DNA of 53,572 bases from Candidatus Zhuqueibacterota bacterium (GTDB taxonomy: Bacteria > Zhuqueibacterota > Zhuqueibacteria > Oceanimicrobiales > Oceanimicrobiaceae), in NCBI GenBank assembly GCA_029262035.1, contig JAJDAE010000059.1, forward strand, positions 1-53,572. Direction: 5' to 3'. Below, piece by piece: positions 4,862 through 27,743 of this stretch. Position 1 is the first letter of the stretch, and each line of letters starts with the position of its first letter. A program made the translations under genes and the position numbers. The notes beneath the pieces are model-generated. The model ran no database searches, was not told where the DNA came from, and was given only the letters and a program-made list of their open reading frames with translations.

Positions 4862-5956
4862 TTACTTATTTGATCCATTATTAATTTTTATTTTAATTGC
4901 AAAGCAGAAAATCCATGGTTCGCAATAAGAAGGAATAAACACACTTTTAAATTCGACTCCAGAAAAGTATTTTTTTATTATTTTTAATAGCATTTCTTTC
5001 GTTTTCAAGTCATGTGCAGAACAACATTGCATACTTAGAATACCATTTCTATTTAGGCATTTCTTAATTTTCAATAATATTTTATCATAAAACTCCTGTC
5101 TATTTTTATTTGTCAGTTCTTCTGGGAACATGGTTAAATCACAGATTATGGCGTCATACTCAAAGTTATTCTCGAGAAATCTATTTGCATCCTCGATTTG
5201 AATCTTTACATTTGGCCTTTCAAAAGGATGCTCGTTGGCTTTGTAAAAATATTTCTTTGATAGAGAAACAACCTCCTCGTCAATGTCAACAAGGGTTATC
5301 TGTTTGAAGTTGTAGCGAAGTAATTCGTTAAGCACACCACCATCACCACCGCCTAAGATCGCGACTCTATTAACACTCTCTTTCCTTTTTAAACACTCTA
5401 CCAGAGTCTGTGAATAGAGCAGAAGGTCGCTTTCAGATAACTGCAAATCTCCATCCAAAAAAAGCATTTTCCCAAAAATATCATTTTCAATAATATCAAT
5501 TTTCTGGTAACGACTTCTCTTTGAGATTATGTTATTTTTAATATGATAATGTATTTCGATTCCATAGTTTGCCTTTGAAATAATATAATCATTATCTTTT
5601 GCCTCTAACTCATTTCCCCTACAAACCTCTAAAAGTTTGATCTCCTTTGCTTCAAGCTGCAACTTAAGAAAATCAAGGAGTTTGTACAATTGATGTGGTT
5701 TAGTGGAACAATGAAAAACGTCAATCGATACATGCTGGGTTTCGGGATATGTGTGGATTGCAATATGTGACTCAGATATAATCGCAATAATTGTAACTCC
5801 ATATGGTTCAAATGTATGACCATGGATATCAATAAGATTCAAACCATATTCCTTTATACCTCTGCCAAGTATAATTTCTAGCTTTTTACAGTTACTTAAT
5901 AATACTGGAGAACAATTCTGCATCTCAGCTAATATCTGAACACCTTGTGTTATCAA
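4862..5956 (-). CDS. AdoMet decarboxylase (SpeD) - aminopropyltransferase (SpeE-like) fusion
   Basis: SpeD half: SESHIAIHTYPE (pyruvoyl Ser) and VFHCS; SpeE half: YQKIDIIEND, FLDGDLQLSESD, ILGGGDGGVLNELLRY, LVDIDEEVV. Confidence 0.88.
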   Translation of the reverse strand: MITQGVQILAEMQNCSPVLLSNCKKLEIILGRGIKEYGLNLIDIHGHTFEPYGVTIIAIISESHIAIHTYPETQHVSIDVFHCSTKPHQLYKLLDFLKLQLEAKEIKLLEVCRGNELEAKDNDYIISKANYGIEIHYHIKNNIISKRSRYQKIDIIENDIFGKMLFLDGDLQLSESDLLLYSQTLVECLKRKESVNRVAILGGGDGGVLNELLRYNFKQITLVDIDEEVVSLSKKYFYKANEHPFERPNVKIQIEDANRFLENNFEYDAIICDLTMFPEELTNKNRQEFYDKILLKIKKCLNRNGILSMQCCSAHDLKTKEMLLKIIKKYFSGVEFKSVFIPSYCEPWIFCFAIKIKINNGSNK

Positions 5957-9879: not shown

Positions 9880-10941
9880 TTACGGCCTGAAAATATCTAC
9901 TGGCGAGTCGCCTGCCACTGGCGTTTGCCAAATGGATTCCGTAATTTTTTGAACCGGGTTTTGGCCAAGCTCTTCATATCGAAGAAATAGAAACAATCGA
10001 AGTCCGATTTTCTTCTCATCGATATCACGTGCCAAAGCGATAAGATTTGTATGCTCTTCCTGGCTCATGCCTTCGGTTACAAACAATACTCGCAAATTCT
10101 GCGGCTCTTTAATAGCTGCATACTTGCGTTTTTTGACCTCTGCCCAAGCTGTCCATCTTTGCTGCTTATAAAAATAGTAGTATGCTTCGAGGCGGTGCCT
10201 GAGACTTTTATAGCGTGAGCGCAAGCGTTTGGGGCTCTTTACAGCGCCCTTGCTACGCTGTAATTCCAGGAAAAAATTCCGAACTTGCAACAGGTTCCCC
10301 TGTTCGTCTTTCCCATTGGCAAGTGCAAACATCCAATCCGGGACGAGGTGATACATGGTATCGCGGCCTACCTGTCCCCTATCCGTGCTGACCTGCCTTT
10401 GTGCTCTAAAGCGGTCAACAAACTCTCTATCCTGAAATTCATAGGGTACTATCAAACCCTGCTCTGTGGCAGCCCGTTTGATGATTGCACGAATTTCGTT
10501 AAGCAGCACGGTATGCATCAGAAACGGGTGGTAACCAGCCGCCAGGCGTTTGGCTTTCACTCGCTTTTTTGTATATTTTCGGAGTTCGGCAGCCCCCAAT
10601 TCATCCAAATAGTAGACGCATGGCTGGCTACCGCCGGTATAGGTATGCGGCGGATGCCAGCGAGCCAGATAACCGTGATGATACAGTTTCTGCAAGCGAT
10701 GCTGCAATGAATTAAGTGAACGACCAAGTTGCCAGGAAATACCCCTGGCGGTCAAGTATTCGAACCAGTGCTCACGGCCAAAAAGCTCAAGAATGGCAAG
10801 GTCTCGTTTTTCAAAACGAATCGGTGTGAGTTCATCCGCAGGTGGTTTTTTGTAGCGGGATTGTTTATTTGCGGGCATAGGCTTGACAGTTTTTGTCATT
10901 TTAGCAATTAACGGTGATGCCGGCAAAGATTTTTCTCTCAA
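9880..10941 (-). CDS. replication-relaxation family protein (Replic_Relax; possible MOBC-type relaxase)
   Basis: FEKRDLAILELFGREHWFEYLTARGISWQLGRSLNSLQHRLQKLYHHGYLARW...YYLDELGAAELRK wHTH layout characteristic of Replic_Relax. Confidence 0.7.
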   Translation of the reverse strand: MREKSLPASPLIAKMTKTVKPMPANKQSRYKKPPADELTPIRFEKRDLAILELFGREHWFEYLTARGISWQLGRSLNSLQHRLQKLYHHGYLARWHPPHTYTGGSQPCVYYLDELGAAELRKYTKKRVKAKRLAAGYHPFLMHTVLLNEIRAIIKRAATEQGLIVPYEFQDREFVDRFRAQRQVSTDRGQVGRDTMYHLVPDWMFALANGKDEQGNLLQVRNFFLELQRSKGAVKSPKRLRSRYKSLRHRLEAYYYFYKQQRWTAWAEVKKRKYAAIKEPQNLRVLFVTEGMSQEEHTNLIALARDIDEKKIGLRLFLFLRYEELGQNPVQKITESIWQTPVAGDSPVDIFRP

Positions 10942-11435: not shown

Positions 11436-11894
11436 ATGGATTATTTGAAACAGCTAAAAATCGAATATATCAAAACTGACATTCCGAACCCTATCCGCGG
11501 TCAGGTCGAAAAACCTGAAGACATTTACGTATTATTTAAGGATATGGAACGGTCGGATAAGGAGAAGGTCGTTGGTGTTTATTTGGATGCACGCATGCTT
11601 ATCAACAGCTTTGAGATTGTTAGCATTGGTTCCAACAACCTTGCTTTAGTTGCGCCTAAAGAGGTCTGCAAAGGCGCTATCCTGACCAACTCGCCGAATT
11701 TCATCGTGCTGCATAACCATCCGTCCGGCGATCCTGAACCAAGCCCCAGAGATAGGCGCGTCATCATTCAGTTGCAATCCGCAGCAAAAGCTCTAGATTT
11801 GCGTTTGATAGACTTCATCATTATTGGCGATGGCCGTTATTGGAGTTGGAAAGCCGGTGAGTATTTCGCGAAAGATTCGGATGAGAGAGGTTAG
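11436..11894 (+). CDS. RadC-like JAB/MPN+ domain protein
   Basis: FIVLHNHPSGDPEPSPRDRRV is the RadC metal-binding signature. Confidence 0.88.
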   Translation: MDYLKQLKIEYIKTDIPNPIRGQVEKPEDIYVLFKDMERSDKEKVVGVYLDARMLINSFEIVSIGSNNLALVAPKEVCKGAILTNSPNFIVLHNHPSGDPEPSPRDRRVIIQLQSAAKALDLRLIDFIIIGDGRYWSWKAGEYFAKDSDERG

Positions 11895-15414: not shown

Positions 15415-16734
15415 TTACACGACTTTTATTTTACCGGTGACTACATTATTAATTAAAGTTTTGCGCAGCTCTTTAAGTTTTTCTATTTCTGTATTGATGG
15501 TTTCAACAACACGATCAATTTGGTCAGTTTTTTGGTCGAGGTAATCTGCAATATCCTTTTGCTCTTCAATAGTAGGGATAATAAAAGGTAATACTTTTAT
15601 ATCTTCGAATTTCATTGAAGATCGTAATCCGCTTCCAAGCCAATAGAAAACTTTTGACAAATCATAAACATGCAGAAGATAATAAGCAAATACTGGGTTA
15701 ATCATTTTTAAGAAATGCAGACATAAATAAGCAGAAGTAATAATTCCTCTTTCTCTTGCTAGTCCGACTCTGAGGCTTGTCCAATCGTTTTGTAAATCTG
15801 TTAAGCGGAGAATAATATTCCCTTGATTGACAATCTGATAGGTCTCAAAGGATTCTGGCAATAAGCCAAAACTCGTCTCGATATTTTTTCTCTTCAACTT
15901 GCCATAACTTAATGAGAGCAGATTTTTTTCGCGTAAGCCTGTGTTTTTTATTTTCTGTTTAGCTGCAATATCATTAATTCTTGGCACCTCCCAATGCGCT
16001 GGCACTTCGCCAATCCACTCAACGCCGCTGTCTTTCATAGGGGCGTTTTTATCTAATCCGCGGGTAACAGTTTCGTTTATGAGAGATTGTTTGAGTTTAC
16101 CATACTGCTCGGCCTTTTGGCTGAGTAGGTCTATTTTGCGATCAATTTGTGTGGTTTTGGTGTCGAGGTAGTTGGCGATGGCGGTTTGTTCCGTTAAAGA
16201 AGGAACTGGAGTCAGTGAATCGGCTATTGCCGATTGACCGAGTCCAACACGAGTAATACCTTTTGCTGATATAACAAAACGGAATCCATAATTTTTAGAC
16301 TGAAAAAGTCTAAATAAATAAGATCCTAAAAGCAATTTATCGTTTGTTCTTAACTGCGCTAGGTGATATCCACAAAGAACTTTATCTAGAGATTCGTTTG
16401 CCAATGCTGGCACAGCTATATCATCGCAGGTTTCAGAATCTTTAGTTATCAAAACGTCATTTTTTTTTATTATAAATCGCTTGATCTCGGATTCATCAGC
16501 AGTTGCCCACATAAAATTCAATGTTGCGTTGATAAATTCATTTTTATAAACATCAACGTAATTGCAAAGCTGAATAGTCAATTCGTTTTCAAGTGATTTT
16601 TTATCCACATTACTATTTTGAATATTTGATAATTCTTTCAGGCGGCGAATATCCCAATATGCAGGCATTTCACCCAGCCACTCAACCTCACTATCTCTAT
16701 AAGCATCATACCGCTCAAATTTTGTATGGCTCAT
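15415..16734 (-). CDS. hsdS: type I restriction-modification specificity subunit
   Basis: Two repeated half-sites (DSEVEWLGEMPAYWDIRRL and DSGVEWIGEVPAHWEVPRI) and LTEQTAIANYLD / IEEQKDIADYLD conserved regions. Confidence 0.93.
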   Translation of the reverse strand: MSHTKFERYDAYRDSEVEWLGEMPAYWDIRRLKELSNIQNSNVDKKSLENELTIQLCNYVDVYKNEFINATLNFMWATADESEIKRFIIKKNDVLITKDSETCDDIAVPALANESLDKVLCGYHLAQLRTNDKLLLGSYLFRLFQSKNYGFRFVISAKGITRVGLGQSAIADSLTPVPSLTEQTAIANYLDTKTTQIDRKIDLLSQKAEQYGKLKQSLINETVTRGLDKNAPMKDSGVEWIGEVPAHWEVPRINDIAAKQKIKNTGLREKNLLSLSYGKLKRKNIETSFGLLPESFETYQIVNQGNIILRLTDLQNDWTSLRVGLARERGIITSAYLCLHFLKMINPVFAYYLLHVYDLSKVFYWLGSGLRSSMKFEDIKVLPFIIPTIEEQKDIADYLDQKTDQIDRVVETINTEIEKLKELRKTLINNVVTGKIKVV

Positions 16735-18773
16735 AATGCCAGTTCCGCTTCTAATTGCTTTAATTTTTCATCTAGCGTATCAATCTCTCCCAAAATCTCG
16801 CTTACTTCCCGCAGCTTTTCTGGTTTATAAAAGACCTTGTTGAAGTTAATCTCCACGCCCACCACATTTTCTAAATACTCAAAGGGTTTACTGACGTATT
16901 TGGCCATAAAAGCTGCAATGGTTTTTTGGTTTTCCGTTTCGTTTTTAAAAAAAGGGATAATCTCGTAATCTTTTTGGAAATCGGGCGTGAGTTCAACGCT
17001 TATATCAATACGTTCCGGCTGGATTTTACCGGCTTTTTTAAAGGTGGCTTTGACAACGATTTTACCACAGCCTAAAGCTTCTTTATTACCTGCGGATTGT
17101 TTTATCAAAGTTTCCTGCTTGGTATCAAAAAAATATAGCTCTTGGCTGGTGGTCACAACCAATGACTGCTCTTTGTAATCCAGGCTAGTTATAAAGGGTT
17201 TGATGTCCTGCTCAAAATAGTCGGCAAGCGAAGTGTATTGCCCCGAATCAAAAGTGGTGGTTACAAATTCGGTGATTTCACGTTCGCCATTCATGAGTTT
17301 TAAAGGCGTCAGTTTTTCGTTGGACTTTCCATCTTGCAATTGAGATTCAAAGCTGTTGCCGTGTTCATCCACATTGATGAGTTTAATGGCCTGTTTGTTG
17401 AAGTAAAAGAATTCTTTATCAAATACACGGGCGAAGTCGTTATCCTGGCAAGCGTTGAGCGTGGCGACAATCTCAAGGCGGTTGACTTCATCCACTTCTT
17501 TGCGTTTGGAGCCTTTGCTTTTTTTCAGTGGTTTGAATTTTTCACTGGCGTTGATGAGCATCACTTTGTCTTTGTGGTGAGCCTGCTTGTTTTTATTGAG
17601 CACCCACAAATAAGTGTAAATGCCAGTGTTAAAGAATTCATCTGTCGGCAATTGAATCACTGCTTCCACGATGTCGCTGTCTAACATCCATTTGCGGATA
17701 TTACTTTCTGCCGAGCCTGCATCGCCGCTAAATAGCGTCGAACCATTATGTACCACCACGCCCATGCCGACACTATCGAGCTTGGAGATGAGGTGCTGCA
17801 TAAACAGCAGTTGCCCGTCTGAGATTGATGGCACGTATTTAAAACGCTCAGTTTTATCGTTTCTGATATCCTTTTCGTAGCCTTTCCAGCTCACACCATA
17901 AGGCGGATTGGCGACAACCACATCGAATTCTTCATTATAAAACTTGTCTTCCACCAGCGTGTTGCCATGTTCGATTTTGGAATCAGCACGAAAACGGCTT
18001 TCAATTTTGGCCAATGCGTAGAGTGCGTCGTTCCAGTCCTGGCCAAAGGTCTGGGTCAGGCGTTTAAATTTTTGGTTAATGCGGTCTTCTACGCCAAACA
18101 GCATATTGCCGCCGCCGCAGGTACAGTCGTAAATTTTCAACAGTGTGTTGGATTCTTCAATCTTAGAGGCAATGATTTCGGCAATCAATGCAATGACATC
18201 GTCGGGCGTGTATTGCTCCCCCGCGGTTTCTGCAGAGATATCCGCCCACTTACGTTTAATGTGTTCTTCCAGCGTGGTGATCTCGGAATTGTTAAAAGGC
18301 TTAAGATCAATCTCTGCCCATAATTTGGTGTAACCCAACAAAACTTTTTTAGCTTTGAGCTTGCTGATCACGCCTTTGATATCGAGGAATTTTTCGCCCT
18401 CGGTAGCATCCACACCAAGCAAGTCTTTGGTTTCGCCATCAAAGCCCTGAAGGTAGGCTTCGAAGTCAATCTCGAACGATTTATCGTTTTTGCAGATGTC
18501 GGTTAACGACTGGTCTTTTTCAAATATAAAAAAATTGTAGCCTTGCCCCTCATCGCGAATAAGATTATAGAGATCATCTTTTTCTATTTTTTTAAATTTC
18601 TCCTCACCGATATCTTTTTTGAGTTTATCAAACATACGCAGCAAACGGCTTTCAATCATCGCGAGGGCAAAAAACGGCATCATAAAGGACGGCCATTCTG
18701 ACTCTTTAATGCCAGAACCACGCAACAGGTCGGCAGTAGCCCAGATTTTAGATTCGTATTGGAGAATGTTCAT
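16731..18773 (-). CDS. hsdM: type I restriction-modification N6-adenine methyltransferase subunit
   Basis: VVANPPYGVSW motif, EQYTPDDVIALIAEII, CGGGNMLFG; overlaps hsdS by 4 bp. Confidence 0.93.
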   Translation of the reverse strand: MNILQYESKIWATADLLRGSGIKESEWPSFMMPFFALAMIESRLLRMFDKLKKDIGEEKFKKIEKDDLYNLIRDEGQGYNFFIFEKDQSLTDICKNDKSFEIDFEAYLQGFDGETKDLLGVDATEGEKFLDIKGVISKLKAKKVLLGYTKLWAEIDLKPFNNSEITTLEEHIKRKWADISAETAGEQYTPDDVIALIAEIIASKIEESNTLLKIYDCTCGGGNMLFGVEDRINQKFKRLTQTFGQDWNDALYALAKIESRFRADSKIEHGNTLVEDKFYNEEFDVVVANPPYGVSWKGYEKDIRNDKTERFKYVPSISDGQLLFMQHLISKLDSVGMGVVVHNGSTLFSGDAGSAESNIRKWMLDSDIVEAVIQLPTDEFFNTGIYTYLWVLNKNKQAHHKDKVMLINASEKFKPLKKSKGSKRKEVDEVNRLEIVATLNACQDNDFARVFDKEFFYFNKQAIKLINVDEHGNSFESQLQDGKSNEKLTPLKLMNGEREITEFVTTTFDSGQYTSLADYFEQDIKPFITSLDYKEQSLVVTTSQELYFFDTKQETLIKQSAGNKEALGCGKIVVKATFKKAGKIQPERIDISVELTPDFQKDYEIIPFFKNETENQKTIAAFMAKYVSKPFEYLENVVGVEINFNKVFYKPEKLREVSEILGEIDTLDEKLKQLEAELAL

Positions 18774-18983: not shown

Positions 18984-20471
18984 TTAATTCTTTTTCAAAA
19001 CTAGTGCCAATTCCCCTGCAATCTCAGCAATTGACTTTGTTTGCGTGATGATTGCAACGATACTGGCGAGTATAGGACTGGATTTCACAACGTCCTCTTT
19101 AGTAATATTGTGCCATAAAGGAAGGATCACCTTTTGCCCATTTGCTTCCTTCGCAGTTAAACCTCCAAGTTCTTTGTTCGTCCACTCCTTCTTGAAGAAG
19201 TGCTTCGATAAGACCACAATTCCGTACCTTGATTTGGTTAAGCCATCATCTATTCTTTCTAACAATTTATCTCCTACAGTTAATTCGTATTCATCATACC
19301 AGATAGAAAAGCCAATTCGTATTAACTCTTCAGCCAGAGGACGTACGAAATCCTTATCTTCACTAGCATGTGAAATAAATACATCACGCTTTGACATTTT
19401 CTCGTTTTCTTTTTTCATGAATTCGATGTAGTCCTTGTCTACCTTTACTAATTGACTTTGTAAGTTCTTATAAACAGGATCAAGGGATCCCTTTACCATC
19501 CGAAGAAATTCAAGCTTTCCTTTTAGTACCATTGCGAAAGACGGCACATCACCTTGTACCCTTCTCTTTTTTGTATAGTATTTTTCAGCATGCTCCTTAT
19601 CGGCTGAATCATAGCCATATTTATCCCATGCATGAATCATAGCTCGGATTTGCCGCACATACTTTCTTGGTAAATTAGGTATGCGGTTTACTGTTAGCCC
19701 TGTCACGGATTGCCGCGTTTTATTATTCTGCAACCGTACTTTATTTTGATTTATTTTAAAACCGTTAGTTTCAATGATTTGAGTTAATTCGTTGCCTACG
19801 TTAGTTACACCAGTTGAATCAACATAGCCTATCCCTGACGGAAATGATAGGCTCGTTTTTGAGAATGTAATGTCATCAGCATATCTCGTATACGTACAGT
19901 AATACATCCCAGCTAGTCTCTGTAAATCGCTATCTAACCTTGAGCAGATCATGTTAGAAACAGTAGGTGAGGTTGGTGCTCCCTGAGGCAATTCGTTATT
20001 GTGACAACATATCTGGCCCAAAACCGTCGCTACTTTCGCACTCAGGGAGTATGGTTTCGCCATGAACATACCTCTCACCCTACCAAAATTTATTGTTGCG
20101 AAAAAATCCTTCAAATCCACATTGAAAACAAATCTTTGTCTTACGTGTCGTTTTGCGTTAGTTACGACACTTCTGTGGTTAATAAAACCATGCGCGGAAG
20201 GCTTTACTTTGTAAACCAGTTCTAGGACATGATTTAATTTTTGTTGCACAATTTTGATATGCGAGTTCGGAGCATTTATGGTACGAGGGTTCCTGCATGT
20301 TTTTTTGTGTACGTCGAACGAACGATATCTTACTGAAACTGGTAGTATATAGATATAGTATTTCAAATGATTATAGTTGACATCCAACAGGTTCGCGATA
20401 TCTTGAGGGGATTGCAGGTCAAAAAATTTCTCTCGTAACTCATCAGATTTTTCAAGCAACTCTATACTCAT
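18984..20471 (-). CDS. retron-type reverse transcriptase fused to C-terminal TIR domain
   Basis: RT motifs LPQGAPTSP, YTRYADDITFS, VTGLTVN; C-terminal KRDVFISHASEDKDFVRPLAEELIRIGFSIWYDEYEL...SKHFFKKEWTNKELGGL (TIR_2 type with candidate catalytic Glu). Confidence 0.92.
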   Translation of the reverse strand: MSIELLEKSDELREKFFDLQSPQDIANLLDVNYNHLKYYIYILPVSVRYRSFDVHKKTCRNPRTINAPNSHIKIVQQKLNHVLELVYKVKPSAHGFINHRSVVTNAKRHVRQRFVFNVDLKDFFATINFGRVRGMFMAKPYSLSAKVATVLGQICCHNNELPQGAPTSPTVSNMICSRLDSDLQRLAGMYYCTYTRYADDITFSKTSLSFPSGIGYVDSTGVTNVGNELTQIIETNGFKINQNKVRLQNNKTRQSVTGLTVNRIPNLPRKYVRQIRAMIHAWDKYGYDSADKEHAEKYYTKKRRVQGDVPSFAMVLKGKLEFLRMVKGSLDPVYKNLQSQLVKVDKDYIEFMKKENEKMSKRDVFISHASEDKDFVRPLAEELIRIGFSIWYDEYELTVGDKLLERIDDGLTKSRYGIVVLSKHFFKKEWTNKELGGLTAKEANGQKVILPLWHNITKEDVVKSSPILASIVAIITQTKSIAEIAGELALVLKKN

Positions 20472-20495
20472 ATAATTATAATTTCATTTTGAAAT

Positions 20496-20652
20496 GGCAG
20501 CCGCAGGTCAATTTCACCTATCGCGTACACTAGAGAATATTAACTAGTAAAAAACTAAAAGTATAAAATATAGTCTGTAGCGCATAAAGCTAACGTTGTT
20601 TTCTTCAGGTCGCAGGATCAACGACCTAACAATTAATTGACCTGCGGTGCCA
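20496..20652 (-). ncRNA. predicted retron msr-msd RNA
   Basis: 13-bp perfect inverted repeat ccgcaggtcaatt (20501-20513) / aattgacctgcgg (20635-20647), extended by 5 bp with one bulge (tggca/tgcca), lying 30 bp upstream of the RT start; internal hairpin aggtcg...cgacct after a TTAGG. Confidence 0.8.
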
Positions 20653-21152: not shown

Positions 21153-21923
21153 TTAGGTTGGTTTCTCGAATACCGGCAAATACTCATGGGCGATGAGCAG
21201 GAAATTAAGCTTCTGGCTGGTGTTCTGCCATTTCTCTGTCATTTTGCAGTTGTGCTGTTCTTTGATGATGATTTCTTTGAGAATGAACCCGGCGCGCAGA
21301 TAGACGCGCATGAGCATAAAACCCAACGGCACGACCCGTTTGTTTTTTCTGGTGTCGCCAATCAGGAAGGCACAGCATCTACCTGGCTTCAGTACCCGGA
21401 AGTTCTCATTGGCCACGAAGTGCATTTCCTGCAGGAAATCATCAACTCCAAAGTGGGATAAATCCTCTGTTGTGTCTTTCGAGTACTGGATGATGTTGGC
21501 GTACGGTGGATGCGTGCAGATAAGGTCGATGGTGTTATCTTTGATTTTGGATAAATCTCTGGCATCTCCTGCCCTGACATCCGGCTTATGGTAACGCCAT
21601 TCTTTCGGTAATGCAAAGGCCAGGTTTTGTTTGGTGAGTTTGATGGCGTTGTCATTGATGTCGATGGCGATACTTTTGCGACCCAGGAGCTTGGCTTCTA
21701 TAATTGTGGTGCCGCTACCGCAGAAACAATCCAGAATGGTTTCACTACTTTTTGAGTATTTAAAAATGAGGTTGCGCGGTACATACGGGCTCCAGTTGCC
21801 GCGATACTTACCGGTTTGTGCATGAGTTGCCCAACTGCCTCGCTCCGGAAAGCTCCATACCGTGGTGGATTGCGGTTGAAAGTCATTAGGTTCGAGTATT
21901 TCAGGTAAATCTTTTTTGTTCAT
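21153..21923 (-). CDS. DNA methyltransferase (N4/N6 amino-methylase type)
   Basis: ETILDCFCGSGTTIIEAKLLGRKSIAIDIN SAM-binding motif and ICTHPPYANI catalytic motif; likely start MNKKDLPE. Confidence 0.85.
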   Translation of the reverse strand: MNKKDLPEILEPNDFQPQSTTVWSFPERGSWATHAQTGKYRGNWSPYVPRNLIFKYSKSSETILDCFCGSGTTIIEAKLLGRKSIAIDINDNAIKLTKQNLAFALPKEWRYHKPDVRAGDARDLSKIKDNTIDLICTHPPYANIIQYSKDTTEDLSHFGVDDFLQEMHFVANENFRVLKPGRCCAFLIGDTRKNKRVVPLGFMLMRVYLRAGFILKEIIIKEQHNCKMTEKWQNTSQKLNFLLIAHEYLPVFEKPT

Positions 21924-22131
21924 TTCGTACCTCCTGTTGATTTTGATTTTCATCTTCAGTAACTATCACATCAATATTTTCTTGGTGTTCACACTCATGA
22001 CAGCGCTCATAGATGACTTGCACGTACGTTTGCGCCATTTCATGAAATTCTGCATCCACTCCGTTGACGATGGAGACGAGCTGTTCCATATCACCGCAAC
22101 CATTGGGACATTCCATTTTTATACCCTCCAT
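21901..22131 (-). CDS. small zinc-ribbon-like protein
   Basis: MECPNGCGDME...YERCHECEHQ gives two CxxC-like knuckles; overlaps the start of the methylase gene. Confidence 0.6.
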   Translation of the reverse strand: MEGIKMECPNGCGDMEQLVSIVNGVDAEFHEMAQTYVQVIYERCHECEHQENIDVIVTEDENQNQQEVRNEQKRFT

Positions 22132-23278: not shown

Positions 23279-24559
23279 CTACTGCAAAAAGCGGCTGATT
23301 TTGGCTTCTACCTGGGCACGGGGACGGCCGTAACGTTGGCGTGAAACCTGCAGGAGTTGTTCCTTATGGACGGTTAAATCCAAAACAGGTGGACTAGGCG
23401 GTGGTATGGTCATGCCTTGATAAGGCTTTTGCACTGTACCGTTGCGTATGAGTTTATAATAGATTTCGTAGGGATTCAGGTTAACCAGGTTGCTCACCGG
23501 CCATTCTGAGCCGAATTCCTTGCCGAAGGTTTCCGCATCATCGGCGCCGAGGCGAAACAGCGCCAGGATACCAATATTGGCCAGCACGGAATTGCGGATA
23601 TTGTCGGTGAGTTGGTCGAGGTACTGATGTGCCAGGATAAAACTTAAACGATATTTCCGAATTTCCGAAAGGGCGCCGGCAAAGGCATCGGTGGTGAAAT
23701 TCTGAAACTCATCGATATAAAGGTAGAAGTCCCGGCGCTGGTCTTCGGGCTGGTTGGCTCTGGCCATGGCTGCTTGTTGCAGGCCGGAAACGATAAACGA
23801 ACCGAGCAGATTAGCGGCTTCTTCACCGAGGCGGCCTTTGGCCAGGTTGACAATCAGGATACTTTTCTGATTGATGATGTTACCAAAATGAATGCTGCTC
23901 GCACTTTGGCCGAGAATATTGCGCAAAGGGCGGTTACTCAGGTAAGCGCCGATTTTGTTTTGCACCGGTGAGATAACTTCTGTGCGCATGCGTTCGGGAA
24001 ACGCTGCAAATTCCTTTTCCCAATAATGCCGTACAAATGGGTCGCTGAGATTGCGCACCAAACGCAGCCGGTATTTTTCATCGGTCAGTAGTTTGGGTAT
24101 GGCGAGCAAGGTACTGCCTGAATTTTCTAACAAAACCAGCAAGGTATTACGCAACAGATACGCCATGCGTGGTCCCCACGAGTCGTGCCAGATTTTTTGA
24201 AAAATCGATAACAGGTTTTCAGCCACCAGGTGGCGTTCGTTTTCGTTAACTTGTCCCAGCAGATTCAGAGCCACCGGGTAGTCTAGGTCGGTCGGATTGA
24301 TATAGACCAGGTGTTTGCGTCGGGCTTTGGGAATGAACGGCAACACCGCTTCGGCCAGGTCGCCGTGCGGGTCGATGAGTCCGACCCCACGACCGGCCTG
24401 GATATCCTGTACCAGCATGTTAAGCAACAAACTGGATTTACCAGTACCGGTTCTGCCGGTTGCCAGAAAATGAAACCGCCGGTCGGTCTGGGTGATACCG
24501 ATTTTCTGGTTATTGTTCGCCCAGTCCAGGGCAAAGTAAGTGAGTTCCTGCGCAGGCAT
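23279..24559 (-). CDS. VirD4/TraG-like (HerA-FtsK superfamily) coupling ATPase
   Basis: FLATGRTGTGKSSLLLNMLVQDIQAGRGVGLIDPHGDLAEAVL (Walker A), DFYLYIDEFQNFTTDAFAGALSEIRKYRLSFILAHQYLDQL (Walker B and sensor). Confidence 0.9.
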   Translation of the reverse strand: MPAQELTYFALDWANNNQKIGITQTDRRFHFLATGRTGTGKSSLLLNMLVQDIQAGRGVGLIDPHGDLAEAVLPFIPKARRKHLVYINPTDLDYPVALNLLGQVNENERHLVAENLLSIFQKIWHDSWGPRMAYLLRNTLLVLLENSGSTLLAIPKLLTDEKYRLRLVRNLSDPFVRHYWEKEFAAFPERMRTEVISPVQNKIGAYLSNRPLRNILGQSASSIHFGNIINQKSILIVNLAKGRLGEEAANLLGSFIVSGLQQAAMARANQPEDQRRDFYLYIDEFQNFTTDAFAGALSEIRKYRLSFILAHQYLDQLTDNIRNSVLANIGILALFRLGADDAETFGKEFGSEWPVSNLVNLNPYEIYYKLIRNGTVQKPYQGMTIPPPSPPVLDLTVHKEQLLQVSRQRYGRPRAQVEAKISRFLQ

Positions 24560-25414: not shown

Positions 25415-25594
25415 GTTGATAATGTACCACCTCTGTCAAAAATGTCAAAACTCGACCGGTTGTAAAACCTGACAGTTGCATCACACGCGCTAGAATGCGC
25501 TGTGAGTGGTTTTTCGGTGCTTTAGTTAAAAAGATACCATCCCTGGAAATTGCGACGCAAATAAGGTCGTTTATTTCAATCGAAGTTTTTGGTT

Positions 25595-25623
25595 TTGGCG
25601 TCCGTTTCCGGGTGTGTTATAAT
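25595..25623 (+). promoter_or_regulatory. sigma70-like promoter
   Basis: TTGGCG-17 nt-TATAAT (25618-25623). Confidence 0.55.
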
Positions 25624-25629
25624 AAAAAA

Positions 25630-25695
25630 GCCAGGTGGAAAACCTGGCGGTCGATAGTAAGCTCGCAAGCGAGCACTTCTTTTGTTATTTGTACT
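25630..25695 (+). ncRNA. two-hairpin leader or small RNA upstream of HTH gene
   Basis: gccaggt-ggaaa-acctggc and gctcg-caag-cgagc followed by a T-rich acttctttt. Confidence 0.4.
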
Positions 25696-25755
25696 GTACC
25701 ACTGCAGAAATTTTACGTCAACCAGTGCGGTGTGAATAACCCCTACCCATGCCTT

Positions 25756-26136
25756 ATGTCACAAGACGATTTTGTAAATCTAAAAGACATCCTGCAACAG
25801 AAAAAAAATATCATTCTGGAAGGGGCTGACCTGGTGTCCCGCAAGGGGTTTACGATGGTGCCCAATCATGTATTGGAGAGCAAAAAAGTTTCACCAGGTG
25901 CCAAACTGGTTTATGCCATGTTGTTGAAGTATGCCTGGCAGAAGGATTCCTGCTTCCCGGGACAGGAGCGTTTGGCGAAAGATATGGGTGTTACAGATCG
26001 CAGTGTTCGAACCTATATCCAGGAGCTTACAAAATGCGATTTCTTGTCTGTAAAGCGTAGAGGGCAAGGTAAGCCCAATTTGTATATTTTGAAATTGACG
26101 GTTAAGGGAAGTAAAAATAAAGGTAGTACCAAGTAA
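25756..26136 (+). CDS. helix-turn-helix (HTH_36-like) replication/regulatory protein
   Basis: FTMVPNHVLESKKVSPGAKLVYAMLLKYAWQKDSCFPGQERLAKDMGVTDRSVRTYIQELTKCDFLSVKRRGQGKPNLY; ATG at 25756 in frame with the longer ORF. Confidence 0.75.
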   Translation: MSQDDFVNLKDILQQKKNIILEGADLVSRKGFTMVPNHVLESKKVSPGAKLVYAMLLKYAWQKDSCFPGQERLAKDMGVTDRSVRTYIQELTKCDFLSVKRRGQGKPNLYILKLTVKGSKNKGSTK

Positions 26137-26168: not shown

Positions 26169-26235
26169 TCCTGACCGGAAAATATTTCCGAACAAGAACG
26201 GAAAACCATTCACTTCCTGACCGGAAAATATTTCC
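26169..26235. repeat. 21-bp direct repeat pair (iteron-like)
   Basis: tcctgaccggaaaatatttcc at 26169-26189 and 26215-26235, exact. Confidence 0.9.
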
Positions 26236-26624: not shown

Positions 26625-27743
26625 TCACGCTGCTTCGTGCCAACGATCCCGTCTCGAGCGATCGGCGGTAGGGCCGCGTTCGTTTTTTGAGACAATGAAT
26701 GCAACATCGTTACCAGGTTCAATAGAGTCTGGGTTGTCTCCAAGGTAGGTAAACAGATCTTGACCATTACCGTCAGAATCCATTACGCGAATAAACGCAT
26801 ATCCTTTATCGCTGACGTTGACCACTTTACCGGGCAGTTGCTGGCCGAAAACGATTAGACAAGCTGCGACCCTATTCTTGCCTTCAACCAGTGGTTCGTG
26901 TGCAAGAAAGTACACCGTTTGACCTGGCTCAAGATCTTCGGGATCAACCATAAAGCGATGGTTTATGAAGAACCATTCGTCATTTGTGCCTAAAATAAAA
27001 CCATGATCTTTTGTAGAGTCCCACGAGCGTACGATACCGCTTTGCCATTCAGTAGAATGGTTATCGACTTTAGACTGTTGCTGTGTAGTAGGATTCGATG
27101 GAGATTCCACTGCCTGTGTTATGGCGTTTGATTTGACCCCATAGAACTGCTTCTCCCAATAGATTTCATAGTATTCAACAGGAGCACTAAAGCCACGGAT
27201 TGGCTTTTTCTGCTGTGGTCCCTGATAATCCTCAGGAGAGCGACCTTCCGCCTCGCCTAGACTGGAACACACTTTACGCATTTGTGCTGTAGAAATCGTC
27301 GCTTTATCGACAAAAACTGCTTTCGGCGATGCATCATTGCACAAACGGGCTGCACGATCAACTACGCTACCAATGAAATCCTCTGCGTTACTTGGAGTTT
27401 CAATGCGAGTCACATCTCCAGAAGCTATACCTATTGAGCAGTTACACACAATCATTTTGTCTTTGACAGCCTTTGCGATGCTTTCATGAATTTTAATTCC
27501 AGCGTTAATGGCCTCGGCTGCATAATCATCATTAAAAACAGCCATGACCTCATCGCCAATATATTTTACTATAGTGCCTCCGAATTCTTGAATTATTTCG
27601 GATGCTACCTTATAAAACCACATCGTAGTATTCAACCATGATACTTCCGGGGTCTTTTCTTTCATTGCCGTTGAATCAGCCATATCAACAAACAAAACAA
27701 CTTTGAATTCTCTGCTTGTAGGATCTAAATCTACATTCTTCAT
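26625..27743 (-). CDS. class III nucleotidyl cyclase domain fused to two cold-shock/OB-like domains
   Basis: KVVLFVDMADST, GGTIVKYIGDEVMAVF, SIGIASGDV, GSVVDRAARLCNDASPKAVFV; then SGIVRSWDSTKDHGFILGTNDEWFFINHRFM and GKVVNVSDKGYAFIRVMDSDGNGQDLFTY. Confidence 0.82.
   Translation of the reverse strand: MKNVDLDPTSREFKVVLFVDMADSTAMKEKTPEVSWLNTTMWFYKVASEIIQEFGGTIVKYIGDEVMAVFNDDYAAEAINAGIKIHESIAKAVKDKMIVCNCSIGIASGDVTRIETPSNAEDFIGSVVDRAARLCNDASPKAVFVDKATISTAQMRKVCSSLGEAEGRSPEDYQGPQQKKPIRGFSAPVEYYEIYWEKQFYGVKSNAITQAVESPSNPTTQQQSKVDNHSTEWQSGIVRSWDSTKDHGFILGTNDEWFFINHRFMVDPEDLEPGQTVYFLAHEPLVEGKNRVAACLIVFGQQLPGKVVNVSDKGYAFIRVMDSDGNGQDLFTYLGDNPDSIEPGNDVAFIVSKNERGPTADRSRRDRWHEAA

Follow-up and report, generated by a model that had tools for sequence, protein, structure and literature searches.

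Retrons in which a single gene encodes a reverse transcriptase (RT) fused to its effector are established for Toprim, protease and TIR effectors, and RT-TIR retrons are already represented by PADLOC type XII and by NCBIfam NF042941. Retron-TIR was reportedly described by Gao et al. 2020. In Retron-Eco2/Ec67 (RT-Toprim, type I-C), the RNA is ordered as a1, branching G, short ssRNA linker, single msr stem-loop, msd and a2; the branched rG15 lies directly after a1 and is followed by a 4-nt single strand (ssRa) and the stem-loop. The msRNA-msDNA of Eco2 holds the RT-effector fusion as a self-inhibited trimer, which is activated on infection. For Retron-TIR, a relative from E. coli is reported to defend against phage, according to the summary of Gao et al. 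2020 in PMC7699616.

We analysed a stretch of 53,572 nucleotides (the window), which carries a genuine RT-TIR retron with its RNA, a variant of an already known kind. The preliminary description had regarded the two-component make-up of RNA, RT and effector as special, a suggestion withdrawn in view of the single-gene retrons named above. As judged from the sequence, the window copy has an RT line apart from the E. coli version, a TIR class of its own and an RNA hairpin of its own. The protein and its domains are located as follows.

18984-20471, minus strand: RT-TIR fusion protein (retron RT plus TIR domain), 495 aa (ORF call; PADLOC; NF042941)
19692-20312, minus strand: RVT_1 domain, residues 54-260, with YADD at residues 197-200 (domain search)
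19101-19382, minus strand: TIR_2 domain, residues 364-457 within the TIR region 361-492 (domain search)

The matches of RVT_1 and TIR_2 within 18984-20471 confirmed the earlier view that the RT is fused to a TIR_2-type domain in one ORF, which is the single-gene arrangement of type XII/Retron-TIR. The ORF contains LPQGAPTSP, YADD and VTG in the RT and KEWTNKEL as the Glu motif of the TIR domain, and therefore has the combination of YxDD and VTG expected of a retron RT. Retron RTs were the top PADLOC and PDB matches, and the best solved relative of the RT by sequence was the Retron Ec67 protein (E 1.3e-57). From an AlphaFold model with a four-sequence input, the TIR domain was usable and the RT was not, being too poor for assembly (mean pLDDT 52).

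Directly upstream of the gene, the elements of a retron RNA were assigned.

20635-20652, minus strand: a1 arm, TGGCACCGCAGGTCAATT, 13 bp perfect plus a 5-bp extension (compensatory change with a2 in L003)
20630, minus strand: predicted branching guanosine (priming 2'-OH), the G of AATT-G-TTA (alignment A2; position of Eco2 rG15)
20607-20627, minus strand: msr hairpin, AGGTCG-TTGATCCTG-CGACCT, with a conserved GATCC loop (covariation across eight loci)
20578-20600, minus strand: conserved 3' msr segment, AACAACGTTAGCTTTATGCGCTA, with a small TAGC/GCTA hairpin (kept in L003)
20514-20577, minus strand: msd-like template, A+T-rich and variable, with a conserved 3' edge, ACGCGATAGGTGA (comparison with L003)
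20495-20513, minus strand: a2 arm, AATTGACCTGCGGcTGCCA, with C20500 bulged (inverted repeat; L003 comparison)

The 13-bp perfect inverted repeat noted earlier is present exactly at 20635-20647/20501-20513, and so is its 5-bp extension with one bulge (TGGCA at 20648-20652, TGCCA at 20495-20499, C20500 bulged). When the 500-nt upstream region was shuffled 300 times at the dinucleotide level, 7 shuffles held a repeat of this strength, so that it is moderately unusual and, from one sequence, suggestive only. For the RNA as a whole, the folding energy is -52.4 kcal/mol (z -5.55), which none of 200 shuffles equalled. The assignment of the repeat as a1/a2 was settled by L003, the locus of genome G003, which is from the same family as the window's genome and another genus, and which carries an RT-TIR protein 74% identical to that of the window. 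L003 keeps the repeat in the same place, and its outer arm has changed from GGCA/TGCC to GGCG/CGCC, a compensatory replacement of A-U by G-C that preserves the pairing. The window locus thus has an a1/a2 repeat around msr and msd beside the RT gene, as retrons do.

The identity between the window and L003 was 92% (70/76) over a1 and msr, 90% (28/31) on the a2 side and 43% (22/51) in the msd interior, and it was 32% over the 100 nt upstream of the RNA. No other protein was common to the surroundings of the two loci over 40 kb. Because the RNA is conserved as an island and no other protein is shared, the conserved unit consists of the RNA and the fusion gene and nothing more, which agrees with the earlier account of a locus made of one RNA and one fusion protein. 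Comparison of the two sequences thus presents the RNA as a conserved structured unit travelling with the RT-TIR gene. Conservation of the inverted repeat among homologues, on which the preliminary description had made its claim depend, held in L003 and failed in L002, a Planctomycetaceae locus with an RT-TIR protein 54% identical to that of the window, which has the msr hairpin and no clear a1/a2.

Across eight loci, the msr hairpin proposed in the preliminary description proved real, with compensatory changes in its stem. These loci are the window, L003, L002, L017 (Planctomycetota), L012 (Herpetosiphon pHAU01, RT-Toprim) and the cyanobacterial plasmid loci L019, L020 and L022. With the structure given, 87.5% of the alignment cells pair, and two-sided changes occur in 5 of the 8 pairs. 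The covariation score was reached by none of 500 shuffles, and slid structures scored at most 0.18 as compared with 0.50 for the hairpin as placed. An RNA model built from the eight loci (R1) recovered those eight and nothing else reliable among 23 sources, and when 82 genomes from the phylum were searched with the RNA model, it matched only G000 and G003, the sole two carrying RT-TIR. Ec67-like, RT-protease and E. coli RT-TIR RNAs escaped R1, which can therefore serve as a subfamily marker only. The preliminary description saw no obvious similarity of the RNA to known ones; an Rfam search of the window returned tRNA only and no match to the element, but the hairpin is common to RT loci of cyanobacteria, Herpetosiphon and Planctomycetota. 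A description of a type XII retron RNA was not found in the literature searched, to which the Mestre et al. 2020 classification and Gao et al. 2020 did not belong.

The branching G is likely G20630, which is unpaired and directly follows a1, by analogy with Eco2. The order of arm, G, ATTT(T) and hairpin is shared by L019, L020 and L022, and also by L028 and L031-L033, and an msr stem-loop follows. This G is conserved by position in most loci, and the Herpetosiphon RT-Toprim locus (L012:2811-2846) has a T there despite its common msr hairpin. The G of TTAGG (G20626), the candidate put forward earlier, pairs with C20608 in the covarying msr stem and was rejected, since it is not the conserved unpaired G. 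Letters similar to the 20578-20600 segment also occur in L012, L019 and the E. coli type RNA, and on sequence grounds this segment (GTTAG) is the probable end of reverse transcription.

A helix of GCGCTAC/GTACGC had also been proposed to close an msd stem. Its letters are present, but L003 does not preserve the helix, and the folding of the predicted cDNA does not stand out from that of shuffles (z +0.63 for the window and -0.68 for L003; +0.77 and -0.29 in a second run), so the stem was discarded. By this comparison with shuffles, the msd DNA hairpin of retrons was not detected at the window locus. Most relatives tested were likewise without a significant cDNA hairpin; L028, L019 and L033 came closest by the shuffle measure. 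L034, the E. coli Retron-TIR locus, and L031 failed the same test, and therefore an msd hairpin should not be taken as a strict criterion. A decayed or domesticated retron, with RT and TIR still open and an RNA that no longer yields msDNA, would account for the missing hairpin and for the missing a1/a2 in L002. We consider it quite improbable, because the motifs are intact and because the conservation of 90-92% with a compensatory change between two genera is confined to the RNA ends.

To place the RT, a tree of RT domains was examined. The window RT grouped with the other GATCC-hairpin RTs (support 93/97), a group of cyanobacterial, chloroflexi and planctomycete RTs that have the msr hairpin in common and mostly other effectors. 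The nearest RTs outside the RT-TIR group are the cyanobacterial and chloroflexi retron-like RTs (L019, L020, L022 and L012), which share the msr hairpin family but differ in their effectors: Toprim, a separate AAA ATPase, or a fused AAA_5 with a PDDEXK neighbour. The E. coli Retron-TIR RTs grouped with RT-protease retrons. A single RT-TIR clade was rejected with 20 rows (AU p=0.0205) and with 17 rows (AU p=0.004; long rows dropped, one viral-contig member added), and thus these AU tests of few rows speak against a common clade of the window RT and the validated E. coli Retron-TIR. With so few rows, and with weak inner branches in the group of the window, the clade result is provisional.

The E. 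coli Retron-TIR (WP_029365257.1, L034) resembles the window copy in being a single protein of RT with C-terminal TIR, in having a structured RNA with a1/a2 arms directly upstream and a conserved GTTAG segment, and in its location in defence and prophage regions. It differs in sequence (RT 45% identical over 271 aa, TIR 41% over 109 aa), in an N-terminal extension of about 40 aa between the two proteins, and in its msr hairpin, GAGG-TTGTTTCG-CCTC as compared with the GATCC-loop type of the window. The window retron could be a strict type XII member that shares the lineage of E. coli Retron-TIR and differs from it by ordinary drift in sequence. The domain order is the same, and the protein is matched in full length by both PADLOC RT-TIR_XII models (E 1.7e-149, residues 12-494) and by NF042941. 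However, the RT-Toprim protein L012 scores equally high with the RT-TIR_XII models (504 bits), so such a match is no proof of lineage, and the NF042941 score of 488.8 bits is under the equivalog cutoff of 600. The rejection of the common clade, the low TIR identity, and the different msr hairpins, with R1 missing the E. coli type, also speak against strict membership, which we regard as unlikely.

We lean slightly toward the view that RT-TIR retrons arose at least two times and that in the GATCC-hairpin RT line RNA and RT remain together as effectors are exchanged (AbTIR-like TIR, Toprim, AAA ATPase, AAA_5 with PDDEXK), the window being the TIR version with a short msDNA that lacks a stable hairpin. 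On this tree, two origins of RT-TIR are a hypothesis with support but are not settled; the pattern would be the same had effectors been lost or replaced in between. Genome searches within the window's phylum gave one close RT-TIR relative. L002 was the sole relative found in a genome-contig scan with the single window sequence, and no further RT-TIR was found in 294 and 398 genomes of the group of L002. In viral contigs, no match was obtained with the window, with A1 or with L003 as the query.

Several related loci were observed in passing. On the E. coli plasmid p13P484A-1 (L013:2788-4417), a Retron-TIR copy is split into two frames, and the chromosomal copy of the same strain (L034) is intact. 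On plasmid4 of Nostoc sp. HK-01 (L045:5983-10346), an RT with the same hairpin carries a fused AAA_5 (McrB-like) ATPase, and a protein with a PDDEXK_7 nuclease domain comes after it, together a possible McrBC-like retron effector; the RNA between the arms is 96 nt, arms included. On Geminocystis and Picosynechococcus plasmids (L019:1435-4065 and L044:5953-10027), the proteins that come after the RT with the same hairpin, one hypothetical and one an AAA ATPase (AAA_33, with a weak WYL in L044), may be another effector set.

The TIR domain of the window matched AbTIR, the TIR NADase of Acinetobacter baumannii, with E 1.6e-46 and 61% identity. AbTIR is a stand-alone coiled-coil TIR protein without RT, whereas the window TIR is fused to the RT; catalytic Trp and Glu are both kept, the predicted catalytic Glu being E434 in WTNKE, with W430 at the Trp position. 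Mutation of S140, R151, D167, V193, W204, E208, R215 and Y238 inhibits the NADase of AbTIR (PMC11374754). Six of these eight are kept in the window (S367, R377, D393, V419, W430 and E434), and the positions of R215 and Y238 are occupied by K441 and S464. The WxxxE Glu and the active-site residues of AbTIR-class NADases are thus found except at these two positions, and from its sequence the domain is likely of the NAD+-destroying type.

Two genes for DNA modification flank the RT-TIR locus.

16731-18773: hsdM of a type I restriction system, flanking the RT-TIR locus
21153-21953: DNA methyltransferase, on the other flank

This position would suit a functional RNA whose TIR domain is not an NADase but an adaptor or scaffold, with death brought about by another gene such as the adjacent methyltransferase or the type I restriction genes. 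We find this very doubtful, since the domain retains both catalytic residues, Glu and Trp, and most of those needed for AbTIR activity, and since none of these neighbours occurs beside the copy in G003.

We favour, with a probability of about 0.75, a compact retron of one RNA and one RT-TIR protein, in which the msDNA-bound RT would restrain a TIR NADase until phage infection; this is the most likely reading because of the homology to Eco2 and AbTIR. From RNA and protein sites whose conservation the comparisons show, we infer the following course of cDNA synthesis, restraint, triggering and NAD+ cleavage. The RT would bind the msr hairpin, and cDNA synthesis would be primed by the 2'-OH of G20630 from the template end just 5' of a2. 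With reverse transcription stopping within the conserved GTTAG segment, the msDNA would be short (about 65-90 nt). The RNA/msDNA-bound RT would keep the AbTIR-like domain in an inactive assembly until phage damage to the msDNA, or sensing through it, acts as the trigger. Once released, the TIR domains may form a head-to-tail assembly that cleaves NAD+, perhaps with a cyclic ADP-ribose isomer as product, and this would stop the infected cell as abortive infection.

Retron-Eco2/Ec67 is likewise an RT-effector fusion, but it has a Toprim RNase effector, a long msd DNA hairpin and a different msr loop. Against the restraint model stand the lack of a stable msd hairpin, unlike Eco2, as well as K441/S464, L002 and the T of L012. 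The locus is of value for its RNA anatomy and because it points to RNA and RT staying paired as effectors change. The full anatomy (arms, branching G and msr hairpin) is comparatively supported for an RT-TIR retron outside Enterobacteria, and the TIR domain is close to a biochemically tractable NADase. A two-part system of a short RNA and one protein is a simple subject for how msDNA restrains TIR. Should RNA and RT remain together as effectors are swapped, the modules for sensing (RNA/RT) and for killing (effector) would be separable.

Domain searches identified further neighbours in the window.

9880-10941: Replic_Relax protein (domain search)
11436-11894: RadC-like protein (domain search)
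23279-24559: TraD/TrwB-like ATPase (domain search)

These genes on the flanks of the defence genes suggest a mobile element of about 6-28 kb. The G+C content of the presumed mobile region is 0.37-0.49, mostly above that of the nearest flanks (0.31-0.36). No integrase or convincing attachment repeats were found in the window, and the mobile element claimed earlier is plausible only. Two perfect 21-bp direct repeats, 46 bp apart, were seen at 26169-26235, beside an HTH gene (25495-26136) at the presumed edge of the mobile region. An ORF at 26625-27743 combines a nucleotide cyclase domain with a cold-shock-like domain at the C terminus and has a weak match, below cutoff, to the retron Se72 effector model. 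At 4862-5956, an S-adenosylmethionine decarboxylase-spermidine synthase fusion ORF adjoins a decarboxylase gene.
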